DNA from: Cyanobacteriota bacterium
GTDB lineage: Bacteria > Cyanobacteriota > Cyanobacteriia > PCC-6307 > Cyanobiaceae
Direction: 5' to 3'
Length of the DNA stretch: 64,000 nt
Assembly (NCBI GenBank): GCA_026389335.1
Contig: JAPLIB010000007.1
Location: 1 to 64,000 of the forward strand
The position numbers were made by a program, and so were the translations under genes. Of this stretch, positions 51,736-56,125 are shown in pieces. Under the pieces are notes generated by a model. The model was given only the letters and a program-made list of their open reading frames with translations, made no database searches and was not told where the DNA came from. How positions within the stretch are numbered: the stretch's first letter is position 1; every line of letters starts with the position of its first letter.

Positions 51736-52746
51736 TTATCGGGGCCCGGCCCCCGCGGCTCCGCTGGCTCGCGGGCTGGCCAGCAGAAAGCCATCGCGGA
51801 AGGCTTCGCCTGGATCGCTGCCTCGTTTGAGCGCCATCTCCACCTCCAGCAACCGGCTCAGCAGAGCCAGCAGCTGGCCCGGAGCCTTGCCACGGATCTG
51901 TTTGCGCATCACGTAGATGCGTTTGGGATTGCCGATGCCGGCCGCCTTGGCGATCACGGCCACGTCCTGTTCACCAGCCTTTTCCAGCAGGGCCACCCAG
52001 AGCCAGCCGCGGATCTGACTGCTGAGCGAGGCCACGATCCGCAGGGCCGGTTCGTTGGCTGCCAGCAGGGCATCGGCCAGGGCGATCGCCTCCGCTGGCT
52101 GGTTGGAGAGCAGGGCATCGCCGACGGCCAGGCTGCTGGTGCTGCGGCCCCCCACCAGCGCCTCCACGGACTGGAGATCGATCGCTGCGGCTGGGTCGCG
52201 CCCCTGTTGGTACAGGCTCAGCTTTTCCAGTTCGCTTTCCAGCCGGGTGCTGTCGCTGCCGATGATGTCGGCCAGGGCCTCGGCAGCAGCGGACTCCAGC
52301 TTCAGGCCGAGGTCATGGGCGGTGCGCAACACCAGGTCCACCTGGCCGCCCCCATCCCAGATCGCCGGCAGCACGAAGCTTTGCTCCTGGGCCACCTTTT
52401 TGAGCGCCTTGGTGGTGCGCAGGCGGGCATCGGGTTTGCCGGGGCTGACGAGCAGCAGATGGCAGCTCGCGCTCACCAGCTCGAGGGTGGCCTCGAGTTG
52501 GTCGGCCAACTCGGCTGGGCACTGGCTGCAGAAGGGGCTGCGTTGCAGCACCACCACCCGGGCACCGCTGCCGAAGGGTGGGGTGCGGGCGTCCTCCAGG
52601 GCCTGGATGGCCTGGGCGCTGTCGTTGCCATCGAGGCGGCTGAGGTTGATGGCCGCCCAGGCCGGATCCACCAGCTTGCCCACCAGGGCTTCCACGGCCC
52701 GCTGGCGGGCGGCTTCGTCATCACCCCAGTAGAGATGGATGGGCAT
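51736..52746 (-). CDS. holA: DNA polymerase III subunit delta
   Basis: A 336-residue clamp-loader wrench subunit. PIHLYWGDDEAARQRAVEAL opens the protein, with ATLELVSASCHLLLVSPGKP, IIGSDSTRLESELEKLSLYQ, LVGGRSTSSLAVGDALLSNQ and LLSRLLEVEMALKRGSDPGE following the usual HolA pattern of a degenerate AAA+ domain and helical collar. Together with dnaX at 22 kb it would form part of the same clamp loader. It is 29 bp upstream of lysC on the same strand. Confidence 0.92.
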   Translation of the reverse strand: MPIHLYWGDDEAARQRAVEALVGKLVDPAWAAINLSRLDGNDSAQAIQALEDARTPPFGSGARVVVLQRSPFCSQCPAELADQLEATLELVSASCHLLLVSPGKPDARLRTTKALKKVAQEQSFVLPAIWDGGGQVDLVLRTAHDLGLKLESAAAEALADIIGSDSTRLESELEKLSLYQQGRDPAAAIDLQSVEALVGGRSTSSLAVGDALLSNQPAEAIALADALLAANEPALRIVASLSSQIRGWLWVALLEKAGEQDVAVIAKAAGIGNPKRIYVMRKQIRGKAPGQLLALLSRLLEVEMALKRGSDPGEAFRDGFLLASPRASGAAGAGPR

Positions 52747-52861
52747 CAGGGATGGATCGGTAGCGGATGTGGCGATGCCGTCCGAAATCGGGCGGCCTGG
52801 GCTTTGTGGAGGCGAGCTCTCGGTTGATGTTGATCACCAGGTTCCAAGCTTCGCCCATGGT

Positions 52862-53632
52862 TCAAAGAGGCTCGCCCACCGCAGGCCTGCGGCGTAAGTC
52901 TGCGTAGCTGAGGCTCCATTGCAGTTCCACTCCCTTGCCCCGATGTTGGATACCGATGTAATCCTCAAGGGCCTGCTCTAAGCAGGGCTGGCAGCTTTTG
53001 TCCATCCCAAATAATTGCTGGCAGAAGTGAAGCATCTGCTGCCGAGAATCGAAATACCAGGGGCAGGGGCGTGTTTCGATGGTCAGTACTTCAAGGTTGC
53101 TGGGCCAGTGCAGCTGCTGGAAGTTGCGATAGATGCCGCGATGGCCGGTGGATGTATGGCGATCGACGAATTGCTCGAGGAAGTGCATGATGCCACTGCC
53201 TGGAAGTACATCGGCGAGATGGAGTAGGCCGAATGGTCGTATCACGTTCGTCGCATTAGCCAGGAATCCATCTAAATCATGAATATGGTGTAGTGCGGCC
53301 AGGCAGATGCAGCGCTGCAGGGAGCTTGCCGCTACGGGCCAAGGGGTGTGGGGATCCACCACTTCCACGTCCGGGTCAAATCCTGGAGTGAATTCCAGGC
53401 TGCGCACCAAGGCTGGAACTTTTAGGGTGGCATCCAGATGCTTCGCTAGGTAGCCACCACCAGACGGTACATCGAGCAGATGTTCTCCGGCTTGTAAGGG
53501 GTGGGCATGGAAGAGTTGTTCGTATTCAAGTGTGCGGGCTCTGGGAACTCCCAGCATCGCTTGTTGGTAAAGCCAGCCTCGTTTGGTGAAGATTTCGGCG
53601 TAATTTCCTGGGCTGGGTTCGGATATGTTCAT
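52862..53632 (-). CDS. Class I SAM-dependent methyltransferase, coupled to CphA-like ligase
   Basis: From ATG 53632, 256 aa. SAM motif I is GEHLLDVPSGGGYLAKHLDA. Post-motif residues include VRSLEFTPGFDPDVEVVD, and CICLAALHHIHDLDGFLANA plus NVIRPFGLLHLADVLPGSGI match the Methyltransf_11 pattern. The start codon overlaps the stop of the upstream ATP-grasp gene (ATGA), so the two are translationally coupled. The DNA is visibly poorer in G+C than its neighbours. The substrate is unknown; the product of the neighbouring ligase is the natural guess. The frame continues upstream to 53692, but the overlapping ATG is the better start. Confidence 0.85.
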   Translation of the reverse strand: MNISEPSPGNYAEIFTKRGWLYQQAMLGVPRARTLEYEQLFHAHPLQAGEHLLDVPSGGGYLAKHLDATLKVPALVRSLEFTPGFDPDVEVVDPHTPWPVAASSLQRCICLAALHHIHDLDGFLANATNVIRPFGLLHLADVLPGSGIMHFLEQFVDRHTSTGHRGIYRNFQQLHWPSNLEVLTIETRPCPWYFDSRQQMLHFCQQLFGMDKSCQPCLEQALEDYIGIQHRGKGVELQWSLSYADLRRRPAVGEPL

Positions 53633-55431
53633 GAATGATGGGCGACTTGTCGTGGGACGGGAGACTGGATTCTGTGCATGAACTGGTTCCATGTTGCCGA
53701 ATGTATAAGTGGTTTTTCCGTCCAGAAAATGGTGTGATCAGGTGCGGAAACTGGGAGTCCGTGTTGCAAGACCTGTTGGGGGTCAATTAAAAAAAGTATG
53801 CTGCGTTCACTTGCGTCCATCAGTACTTCCTTGGGGTGGCGATAGGCGCGATGTCGGGAACTCGCGGCGAGATTCAGGGCGGTGATGCTGTCAGTCAGTC
53901 GCTGGGGGAAGGCGATGGTCAGGTGGGGATCGGTCGCGATCATTTCGATCAGCTTTTGCTGCAAAGCCACCCGCTCTTCTGCTTCGAAGCGGGCGATCAT
54001 CACGGTGGTGGGGATGCTGTGGGGGGTGTCGCCTGGGAACAGCTCTCTGAAAACGATGTTGGTTCGCTCCGCCGAGGCCTGAGGCATCCAGTTCACTTCA
54101 ATGAAGGCACCCGCGGCTTGACTGGGCGATTGGCTGATGTCGTGGCAGAGATAGTCAATGCCCGCGGCAGCCAATCGGAGTGTGGCCGCGATGGTTTCAC
54201 ATTGCCGACGGATCACAGGATGCACCTGTTCGGTGACTTCCCGGAAGAGGCCGCCGGTGCTCACGTTGGCATTGCTGCGCAGCTGGATTGTTTGTCCCGT
54301 TGGGGGGACGTCGTCGAGTTTAAGCTTGGCTTGCTCGAGATGATGAAGGGTCTCAGCGTCCACTGGGATCAGGCCACTGACGCCATCAAGGGCCCGCAGT
54401 TCTGCTCTGTACTTGTTGGCGGCGGCGATTAACTCGGAGACGGTGCTGATCCCATCGCCTGTGATGCTGGGGGGCAGGCGTTCCACAGCCCAGGCGAGTG
54501 TGCCATTGAGCATGGTGAGGCGCGTGTCGTTCCCTTGGATCATCGCTTCGATCACCAGCTTGTGCATTGCCTCTCGTCTGGCCTCCGTGGCCGCCCGCAA
54601 CAGTTGAGCCTCGTTCTCGATCCCTACGGTGACGCCACGTCCTTGGTCTCGATCGGCGGGTTTGAGGACGCAGGGGTAGCCGATGCGTGCTGCGGCTTTC
54701 ACCAGGTCGCTGTCCTTGCAGGTGACCAGCAGTGATATCTGGCGCGGAACCGGTAATCCCAGGCTGCTAAGCAGTTTGTTGGTTTTTTGTTTGTCTTGCG
54801 CAATATCGCATCCGATCTGGGAATCTCGATCTGTGGCCGTGCTGTTGATCCAGCGGGCCTGGCAGCCGCTTCCCAGTTGATAGAGCCGGGTGCTTGGCTC
54901 GATCAGGAGATGGGGGATGCCTCGCCGCCGGGCTTCCCTGAGCAGTTTCATGGTGACGGGATGTTGGCAGCAGATGGCGCTATTCAACTGTAGTCTTGCC
55001 AGACGAATTTCCAGGTTTGAATCGCTGCTGCTGTTCTCGGGTTGCAACCAGCTTGTCGTGATCAGTTGGTAGGCCAGGGACAGTGCAGCACCGGCCAGTT
55101 CGTGCTGAAGACAGGTTGCAATCCAAAGGTTTTCAGGCGTTTTTGGCCCTAGCTGGGGCCGCTGCAGATCCACCTGCGCTGGGGCCAGGATTTGCCTGGC
55201 GATGGAGACGAGGAGAGCTGCGACTGAAGGTTCCAGCTCCTGTCCGCAGGTAGGGGCTTGCGTCTTGGTCAGCCTGGGAAAGTCACGAGCGACGGCGGCC
55301 AGGGCCTGGTTGTGCCACTGCCGAGCGGCTGCCCCATCACCGGGGATGTTGAGAGGCCAGTGGATCAGCCAGGCCGGTCCGTCCCAGATCAGACCCGGAC
55401 CATGGAGTTCCTGCAGTCGGAAGGGAGGCAT
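53629..55431 (-). CDS. Cyanophycin-synthetase-like ATP-grasp ligase with vestigial Mur domain
   Basis: From ATG 55431, 600 aa. Residues 1-160 resemble the CphA N-terminal domain. Residues 161-480 are a CphA/RimK-type ATP-grasp domain with DIAQDKQKTNKLLSSLGLPV, RIGYPCVLKPADRDQGRGVT (Lys257), RLPPSITGDGISTVSEL, NVSTGG and GAFIEVNW. In CphA the next segment opens the Mur-ligase half with LFP...IP and a GTNGKTTT P-loop. Here LFPGDTPHSIPTTVMIA is present but ARFEAEERVALQQ stands where the P-loop should be. A Mur-like fragment (VLMDASERSILFLID, VLQHGLP) follows and the protein ends about 270 residues early. It probably ligates an amino acid or amine but cannot be a normal cyanophycin synthetase. 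It is coupled to the downstream methyltransferase. An upstream in-frame start (55494) would overlap cobH. Confidence 0.85.
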   Translation of the reverse strand: MPPFRLQELHGPGLIWDGPAWLIHWPLNIPGDGAAARQWHNQALAAVARDFPRLTKTQAPTCGQELEPSVAALLVSIARQILAPAQVDLQRPQLGPKTPENLWIATCLQHELAGAALSLAYQLITTSWLQPENSSSDSNLEIRLARLQLNSAICCQHPVTMKLLREARRRGIPHLLIEPSTRLYQLGSGCQARWINSTATDRDSQIGCDIAQDKQKTNKLLSSLGLPVPRQISLLVTCKDSDLVKAAARIGYPCVLKPADRDQGRGVTVGIENEAQLLRAATEARREAMHKLVIEAMIQGNDTRLTMLNGTLAWAVERLPPSITGDGISTVSELIAAANKYRAELRALDGVSGLIPVDAETLHHLEQAKLKLDDVPPTGQTIQLRSNANVSTGGLFREVTEQVHPVIRRQCETIAATLRLAAAGIDYLCHDISQSPSQAAGAFIEVNWMPQASAERTNIVFRELFPGDTPHSIPTTVMIARFEAEERVALQQKLIEMIATDPHLTIAFPQRLTDSITALNLAASSRHRAYRHPKEVLMDASERSILFLIDPQQVLQHGLPVSAPDHTIFWTEKPLIHSATWNQFMHRIQSPVPRQVAHHS

Positions 55432-55483
55432 GGCTGTCTGCCGGTTCGGCTGGCTGGTTCTGATTCCATAGGTTGGAGCCGCC

Positions 55484-56125
55484 TTGACCCCCACTCCCGC
55501 CCTGGATCACCCGATCTTCACGGAGAGCCTCCGTCGCATTCGCGGCTGGTTGGAGCCCACAGGCCTGCTGGCAGGCCTGACGCCCCTGGAGCAGGAGGTG
55601 GTGGAGCGTCTGGTGCACAGCAGCGGCGACCTCAGCGTGGCTTCGGGGGTGCGCTTCTCCCCCGGGGCCTGTGCCCTGGGGCTGGAGGCCTTGCTGGCAG
55701 GGGTGCCGATTCTCACCGATACGGCCATGGCGGCCGCGGCGGTGGCGCCGATGGCCCGACGCACCTTCGGCAATCCGGTGCTGAGTGTGCTCGATTGGGC
55801 GCCTGCCGTCGCCCCCGAGGGCGGCACCCGGGCGGCGGCGGGCCTGGATCTGGCCCTGGAGGCCCATCCCGGTGCCGTGGTGCTGATCGGCAGTGCCCCC
55901 ACGGCGCTGGTGCGATTGCTGGAGCGGGTGGCCGCTGGTGCGGCCCGGCCGGCCCTGGTGGTGGGCATGCCGGTGGGCTTTGTGGGCGTGCTGGAGAGCA
56001 AGGCCTTACTGGCGGCCAGTGACCTGCCCCAGATCCGGCTGGAGGGCAGCCGTGGCGGGGCCGGCCTGGTGGGGGCCAGCGTCAATGCCCTGTTACGCCG
56101 GGCCTGGCTGGAGCGCCAGTGCTGA
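55484..56125 (+). CDS. cobH: Precorrin-8X methylmutase
   Basis: CobH/CbiC (213 aa from TTG 55484) moves a methyl group from C11 to C12 to give hydrogenobyrinic/cobyrinic acid. HPIFTESLRRIRGWLE, VERLVHSSGDLSVASGVRFS (with the catalytic His in the first part), VPILTDTAMAAAAVAP, PALVVGMPVGFVGVLESKAL and RGGAGLVGASVNALL are typical. It shares the B12 pathway with cbiD at 40 kb. It is divergent from the CphA-like gene, and its stop abuts repeat copy B. Confidence 0.93.
   Translation: MTPTPALDHPIFTESLRRIRGWLEPTGLLAGLTPLEQEVVERLVHSSGDLSVASGVRFSPGACALGLEALLAGVPILTDTAMAAAAVAPMARRTFGNPVLSVLDWAPAVAPEGGTRAAAGLDLALEAHPGAVVLIGSAPTALVRLLERVAAGAARPALVVGMPVGFVGVLESKALLAASDLPQIRLEGSRGGAGLVGASVNALLRRAWLERQC

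Follow-up and report, generated by a model that had tools for sequence, protein, structure and literature searches.

Cyanophycin synthetases are storage enzymes, and two groups of them, CphA1 and CphA2, are the closest described systems for the locus reported here; the PDB entries 8fxh and 7ta5 are, we presume, CphA2. The layout in which an ATP-grasp domain is combined with a reduced Mur part is already known from CphA2, according to two reports (PMC9427784, PMC10206079). The second also places a cyanophycinase in 98.7% of the cyanobacterial genomes that encode CphA1 (PMC10206079). Our starting point was an original prediction, made from the window (the whole 64-kb stretch of DNA that was analysed, from a small aquatic cyanobacterium), that a CphA-derived ATP-grasp ligase is coupled to a methyltransferase in a candidate new peptide or amide pathway.

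The coordinates of the two open reading frames (Table 1) agree with that prediction in placing the methyltransferase gene directly after the ligase gene, with an ATGA overlap. The overlap itself is not conserved, since a short gap separates the genes in the related genome G028 and a gap of 33 bp does so in G274. The two NCBIfam cyanophycin synthetase models match residues 104-450 of the ligase only, with 250.6 and 254.3 bits, which is below both curated cut-offs (850 and 877 bits); the canonical protein of genome G090 scores 1041.4 and 1026 bits against the same models. Solved CphA chains align with the ligase within residues 147-451, and TIGR03103 (N-acetylglutaminylglutamine synthetase) matches residues 164-448 with 158.7 bits. 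The ligase had been credited with the full N-terminal and ATP-grasp architecture of CphA. The ATP-grasp part of this description stands, whereas its wording on the N-terminus is a little strong, because residues 1 to ~100 are matched by neither the NCBIfam nor the solved-chain CphA profiles. The N-domain peptidase motif was sought in the ligase and is absent; it occurs in all five CphA1 rows from outside the family and is missing from the in-family CphA1 of G090.

Table 1. Positions of the ligase-methyltransferase pair, its parts and the surrounding insert in the window
Feature	Position	Strand	Remarks
CphA2-like ATP-grasp ligase ORF	53629..55431	minus	600 aa; ATG at 55431; stop codon counted in
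Ligase N-terminal part, residues 1-156	54964..55431	minus	without the CphA1 N-domain peptidase motif
Ligase ATP-grasp (G) domain, residues ~157-451	54079..54963	minus	ATP and Mg residues kept
Ligase C-terminal ~150 residues (453-600)	53632..54075	minus	likely Mur remnant, no P-loop; weak homology to the CphA2 C-terminus
SAM methyltransferase ORF	52862..53632	minus	256 aa; stop codon counted in
ATGA stop/start overlap	53629..53632	minus	ligase TGA and methyltransferase ATG
Low-GC insert between two conserved genes	52747..55483	none	site empty in G015, G017 and G007; decayed in G011

A Mur P-loop was likewise sought in the ligase and is absent. The last ~150 residues resemble the C-terminus of CphA2 weakly (probability 46%, E-value 2e-4, 105 columns) and that of CphA1 more weakly still (9%), and a shared segment with a conserved terminal glycine points to this putative remnant being part of the Mur core. 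The Mur half had been thought inactive, and there is indeed no working Mur half; it is reduced to a probable remnant of ~150 residues, however, and not present in an inactive form. The ligase is a predicted CphA2-like ATP-grasp enzyme, which the tree and the lack of a detectable cyanophycinase (both below) set apart from CphA1 and from canonical CphA2. Its 256-aa partner is a predicted class I SAM methyltransferase. Pfam methyltransferase matches to it are weak and below cut-offs, and in a five-row alignment the class I SAM-site pattern D54, G58, G60, E80, and D141 is invariant. AlphaFold2 models built from two sequences each had a mean pLDDT of 30.8 for the ligase and 36.1 for the methyltransferase, and no conclusion draws on them.

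Among 60 relatives, 28 had a match to the ligase at an E-value of 0.001, some of them generic ATP-grasp matches only. A stricter search of 400 family genomes at 1e-10, in which three candidates per genome were scored, gave a CphA-like match in 16, and the clade of the window ligase was found in four of these 400, from three genera: G000, which is the window's own genome, its close relative G028, G180, and G274. The methyltransferase, searched at 1e-8, was found in five. The co-occurrence that the original prediction had proposed to map holds in 4/4 ligase-clade genomes, all of which carry both genes; these lie at most 4 kb apart in 4/4 and are directly adjacent on one strand in 3/4. The probability of such an overlap arising by chance is ~5e-9, or 4e-7 with G000 and G028 counted once, on the assumption that both searches covered the same 400 genomes and with finer kinship ignored. 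The fifth methyltransferase genome, G017 (64% complete), has a split relative of the gene on a 5.9-kb contig that contains no ligase match.

Nine of 388 genomes sampled from the class passed a ligase profile search at 1e-60. The eight besides the window's own are full-length CphA frames scoring at most 217 bits, and no further member of the ligase clade was found in this sample; G028, G180, and G274 were apparently not drawn into it, since they are absent from its matches. A scan of genome contigs found one contig, that of G028, and a scan of viral contigs found no ligase relative. A plasmid search returned 128 records, all below 60% identity, one of which covers at least 80% of the query. On the Microvirga ossetica plasmid NZ_CP016620.1 (L153:7704-10718), a 1004-aa "CapA family protein" is encoded with ABC transporter and HlyD secretion genes close by; its CphA-like part aligns with 81% of the window ligase (27% identity). 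The methyltransferase profile matched seven of the 388 class genomes (its own included, and two of them weakly) and two of 222 relatives of G180 (G180 itself and G481), and a search against phages gave no match. None of the six stretches read around methyltransferase relatives outside the family contained a ligase match; asparagine-synthase-like genes adjoin in two of the six. Among the titles and abstract openings returned by searches of open-licence PMC papers, preprints excluded, none describes such a ligase-methyltransferase pair.

The absence of a second cyanophycin gene from the window, as originally noted, is correct for the 64 kb themselves, where no other CphA-like gene was matched, but the genome has CphA-like genes on other contigs: C59, C43 (two), and C152 (two pieces), with a C-terminal piece on C154. 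The CphA2-like gene on C152 (L046:8461-10369) lies in two overlapping frames and is broken or misassembled; a relative in G015 (L054:7220-9127) is intact, as judged by eye. Close homologues of the ligase were not found beside full cphA/cphB genes, and a search for cyanophycinase (TIGR02069) found none in the four carriers of the pair, of which G028 is only 85% complete. More broadly, cyanophycinase went undetected in 14 of the 15 genomes searched that encode CphA-like proteins, the window genome included (G080, one of the 16 matching genomes, was left out of this search); 13 of the 15 reach 90% completeness or more with no more than 5% contamination, and the sole positive is G090, the canonical cphB-cphA genome. 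Among 14 control genomes, TIGR02069 matched five, two of them above the cut-off. The coupling of a CphA-derived ligase to a methyltransferase is supported, and the pair apparently stands outside cyanophycin storage.

Three of the four clade genomes also encode a divergent Mur-containing protein, CphAx, of which one copy is broken. With ~500 bits CphAx stays below the cut-offs of the cyanophycin synthetase models, which it matches from position 123 over almost their entire length. We consider it unlikely that the ligase and CphAx together make a polymer or oligomer resembling cyanophycin, modified through methylation by the methyltransferase. In favour of this reading, ligase, methyltransferases, and CphAx meet at one locus in G180, and CphAx has a Mur P-loop together with the Asp-site residues R323, N394, S396, G456, and R458. 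Against it, the single-contig genome G274 has the pair and neither CphAx nor any other Mur-containing CphA-like gene, the CphAx of the window genome and its adjoining TauD-type gene are frame-broken (an assembly error is possible), and no cyanophycinase that could recycle a polymer was detected.

The catalytic residues of the ligase were compared by mapping 13 sites on an alignment of 38 CphA-like rows, with residue roles taken from PMC9427784 and with N452 as our own addition. The window ligase has the same residue as CphA1 at nine sites (K220, K261, R309, R323, N394, S396, D431, E450, and N452) and a different one at four (E215 to D, H267 to Q, G456 to Q, and R458 to S). All ATP- and Mg-binding residues are kept in the window ligase; their loss would have refuted the original prediction. 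Three of the changed residues, H267, G456, and R458, handle acyl-phosphate or aspartate in CphA1. In the four clade ligases the G456 site is Q throughout, the H267 site reads Q, Q, Q, and K, the R458 site S, S, A, and Q, and the E215 site D, D, A, and T; one of them (G180) has N instead of D431. This pattern suggests an ATP engine that has been kept and an acyl/acceptor end that has been altered. Four canonical CphA2 rows have lost R458 too and carry K in place of H267, and all four keep G456. Since the equivalents of three aspartate-holding residues of CphA1 (R323, N394, and S396) are kept in the window ligase and the fourth, R458, is lost as in the CphA2 rows, the likeliest acceptor would be an Asp-derived or dipeptide amine, an argument that draws on four clade rows only, which vary at E215 and (in G180) at D431.

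A maximum-likelihood tree of 37 rows, with a midpoint root for drawing, was made without the frame-broken CphAx and the broken C152 gene of G000 and without the CphA-like sequences of G038, G045, G052, and G080. The four clade ligases are monophyletic (support 100/98), with five other ligases as sister group; tblastn around those five found no such methyltransferase. Canonical CphA2, CphA1, CphAx, and a P450/dioxygenase-linked group fall separately, as do others. The four CphA2 rows were labelled by their length, the lack of a Mur P-loop, and the co-occurrence of a full-length CphA frame in their genomes, with no named reference. Long branches were flagged, including that of G274, whose exact place is therefore less sure than the support suggests. 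A CphA-derived ligase, as first proposed, is supported; in the tree it falls outside both the CphA1 and the CphA2 groups. That it is a divergent but ordinary CphA2 which re-polymerises beta-Asp-Arg beside an unrelated methyltransferase would fit its length, its putative Mur remnant without a P-loop, the lack of an N-domain peptidase motif, and the loss of R458. We nevertheless regard this as improbable: the ligase lies outside the CphA2 clade, G456 is changed in 4/4 clade rows and kept in 4/4 CphA2 rows, no cyanophycinase was detected as a source of beta-Asp-Arg, and the link with the methyltransferase recurs.

The insert that carries the pair (Table 1) is flanked by genes at 51736-52746 and 55484-56125, which we take to be holA and cobH, respectively (the gene labels lysC and mutS are likewise presumed). 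G028 keeps both genes of the pair, at 85-86% identity to the window, between the same two flanking genes. Between these two genomes dN/dS is 0.29 for the ligase and 0.21 for the methyltransferase, and dS is 0.27 and 0.34 for the pair, against 0.06 and 0.08 for two genes on one flank. GC3 of the pair is 0.67 and 0.61 versus 0.84-0.87 in three neighbours, and in G180 and G274 the pair is likewise low in GC against the photolyase genes. The neighbour gene was found in 34 genomes; in five of these, in addition to the window genome and G028, we read across the insertion site. At this site G011 (L146:2638-2862) has a remnant matching methyltransferase residues 163-237 and no ligase match, and G020 has a gap of ~0.9 kb with no match to either protein. 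The simplest interpretation is acquisition of the pair, selection in the genomes that retain it, and decay in a single relative; we infer a horizontal origin. Its patchy and low-GC occurrence, its decay in G011, and the frame-broken CphA-like genes on C43 and C152 might suggest instead a transient acquisition that is decaying and has no fixed function in the window genome. This is very improbable given that both genes have uninterrupted reading frames in the window and evolve under purifying selection, and that the pairing persists across three genera. Retention under such selection in G028 and recurrence in two other genera also make the original observation more than chance.

Elsewhere the pair and its relatives keep differing company. 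G274 has the pair flanked by DegT aminotransferase and photolyase genes, and in G028 the same slot (L049:980-10996, C93) holds, in place of the pair, CphAx, a TauD-type dioxygenase, a P450, and another ligase; the aminotransferases are 69% and the photolyases 68% identical between the two genomes. From this one slot, the cassettes look interchangeable. The order in G180 is photolyase, ligase, DUF3326, a second methyltransferase, the methyltransferase, CphAx, and a CapA-like gene. Contig C43 of the window genome (L045:292-8543) carries a second CphA2-like ligase, a P450, and a photolyase, plus CphAx and a TauD-type gene, each of the last two split over two frames (L045:141-3206) by decay or assembly error. 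P450 and TauD relatives also occur in clusters of G017 (L052), G081 (L092), and G180 (L090). In a further ligase clade (G081 and G180), a Methyltransf_24 gene, of a different methyltransferase family, overlaps the ligase gene in 2/2 rows. On C455 of G017 (L053:4630-7974), an AMP-binding adenylation domain is fused to a CphA-like ATP-grasp ligase in a protein of 1114 aa. The ligases of yet another clade (L083, L084, and L088, in G093, G197, and G140) are adjoined by a ~540-aa protein, for which a Pfam scan gave no match in G093 and G140; a glycosyltransferase also lies beside the ligase in G093, and CphAx does so in G093 and G197.

The pair is real, conserved, unlike ordinary cyanophycin metabolism, and new within the CphA family. 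We think it probable that it is a horizontally acquired cassette of specialised metabolism, one of several exchangeable ones, in which a CphA2-like ligase and a methyltransferase would make a small amide or peptide. What this cassette catalyses, on which substrates, in what order, and to what product, we infer as follows. The ligase would work by its ATP-grasp site alone, the Mur half being a probable remnant; it would phosphorylate a substrate carboxylate to an acyl-phosphate and then join an amine, forming one or a few amide bonds to an Asp-derived acceptor. The SAM methyltransferase would then methylate the ligase product, or else a substrate. The gene content described here offers no evidence that this product is an osmolyte or a signal, two options raised in the original prediction. 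The cassette would be one among an exchangeable set in this cyanobacterial family, with divergent CphA-like ligases accompanied by differing tailoring enzymes. A wider proposal, which we offer tentatively and would put at slightly under an even chance, is that such cassettes are built on repurposed cyanophycin synthetases, with clade-specific ATP-grasp ligases, sometimes a divergent Mur-containing partner, and tailoring enzymes of their own (methyltransferase; P450 and TauD-type dioxygenase; Methyltransf_24; adenylation fusion), and yield Asp-based small peptides or amides without the ribosome or classical NRPS. CphA relatives here reside in genomes without a detectable cyanophycinase, in cassettes whose tailoring enzymes appear to be exchanged within a single chromosomal slot. 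Should a modified small peptide or amide be the product, picocyanobacteria would have a compact peptide route that may escape searches for NRPS and RiPP genes. The two-gene pair is small enough for direct testing.

Several known systems share parts of this arrangement. In other cyanobacterial families, clusters that include polysaccharide pyruvyl transferase and asparagine-synthase-like genes (L118 and L119, in G651 and G561) contain methyltransferases 28-33% identical to those of the clade, but unlike the window locus they have no CphA-like ligase match in the stretches read. TIGR03103 has an ATP-grasp domain in common with the window ligase, which misses its cut-off of 569 and aligns best with model positions 248-520 of 547 only. 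CphA1 is similar in its ATP-grasp domain, including the ATP, Mg, and most substrate residues; unlike CphA1, the ligase lacks a Mur half, is changed at H267, G456, and R458, and falls far below the NCBIfam cut-off. CphA2 (~600-640 aa) is alike in length, in having ATP-grasp followed by what in the window ligase may be a Mur remnant of weak homology, in lacking the Mur P-loop and the N-domain peptidase motif, and in the loss of R458. Unlike CphA2, the window ligase has no detectable cyanophycinase in its genome, belongs to a separate clade with a changed G456 and a different ATP-grasp P-loop, and is tied to a methyltransferase.
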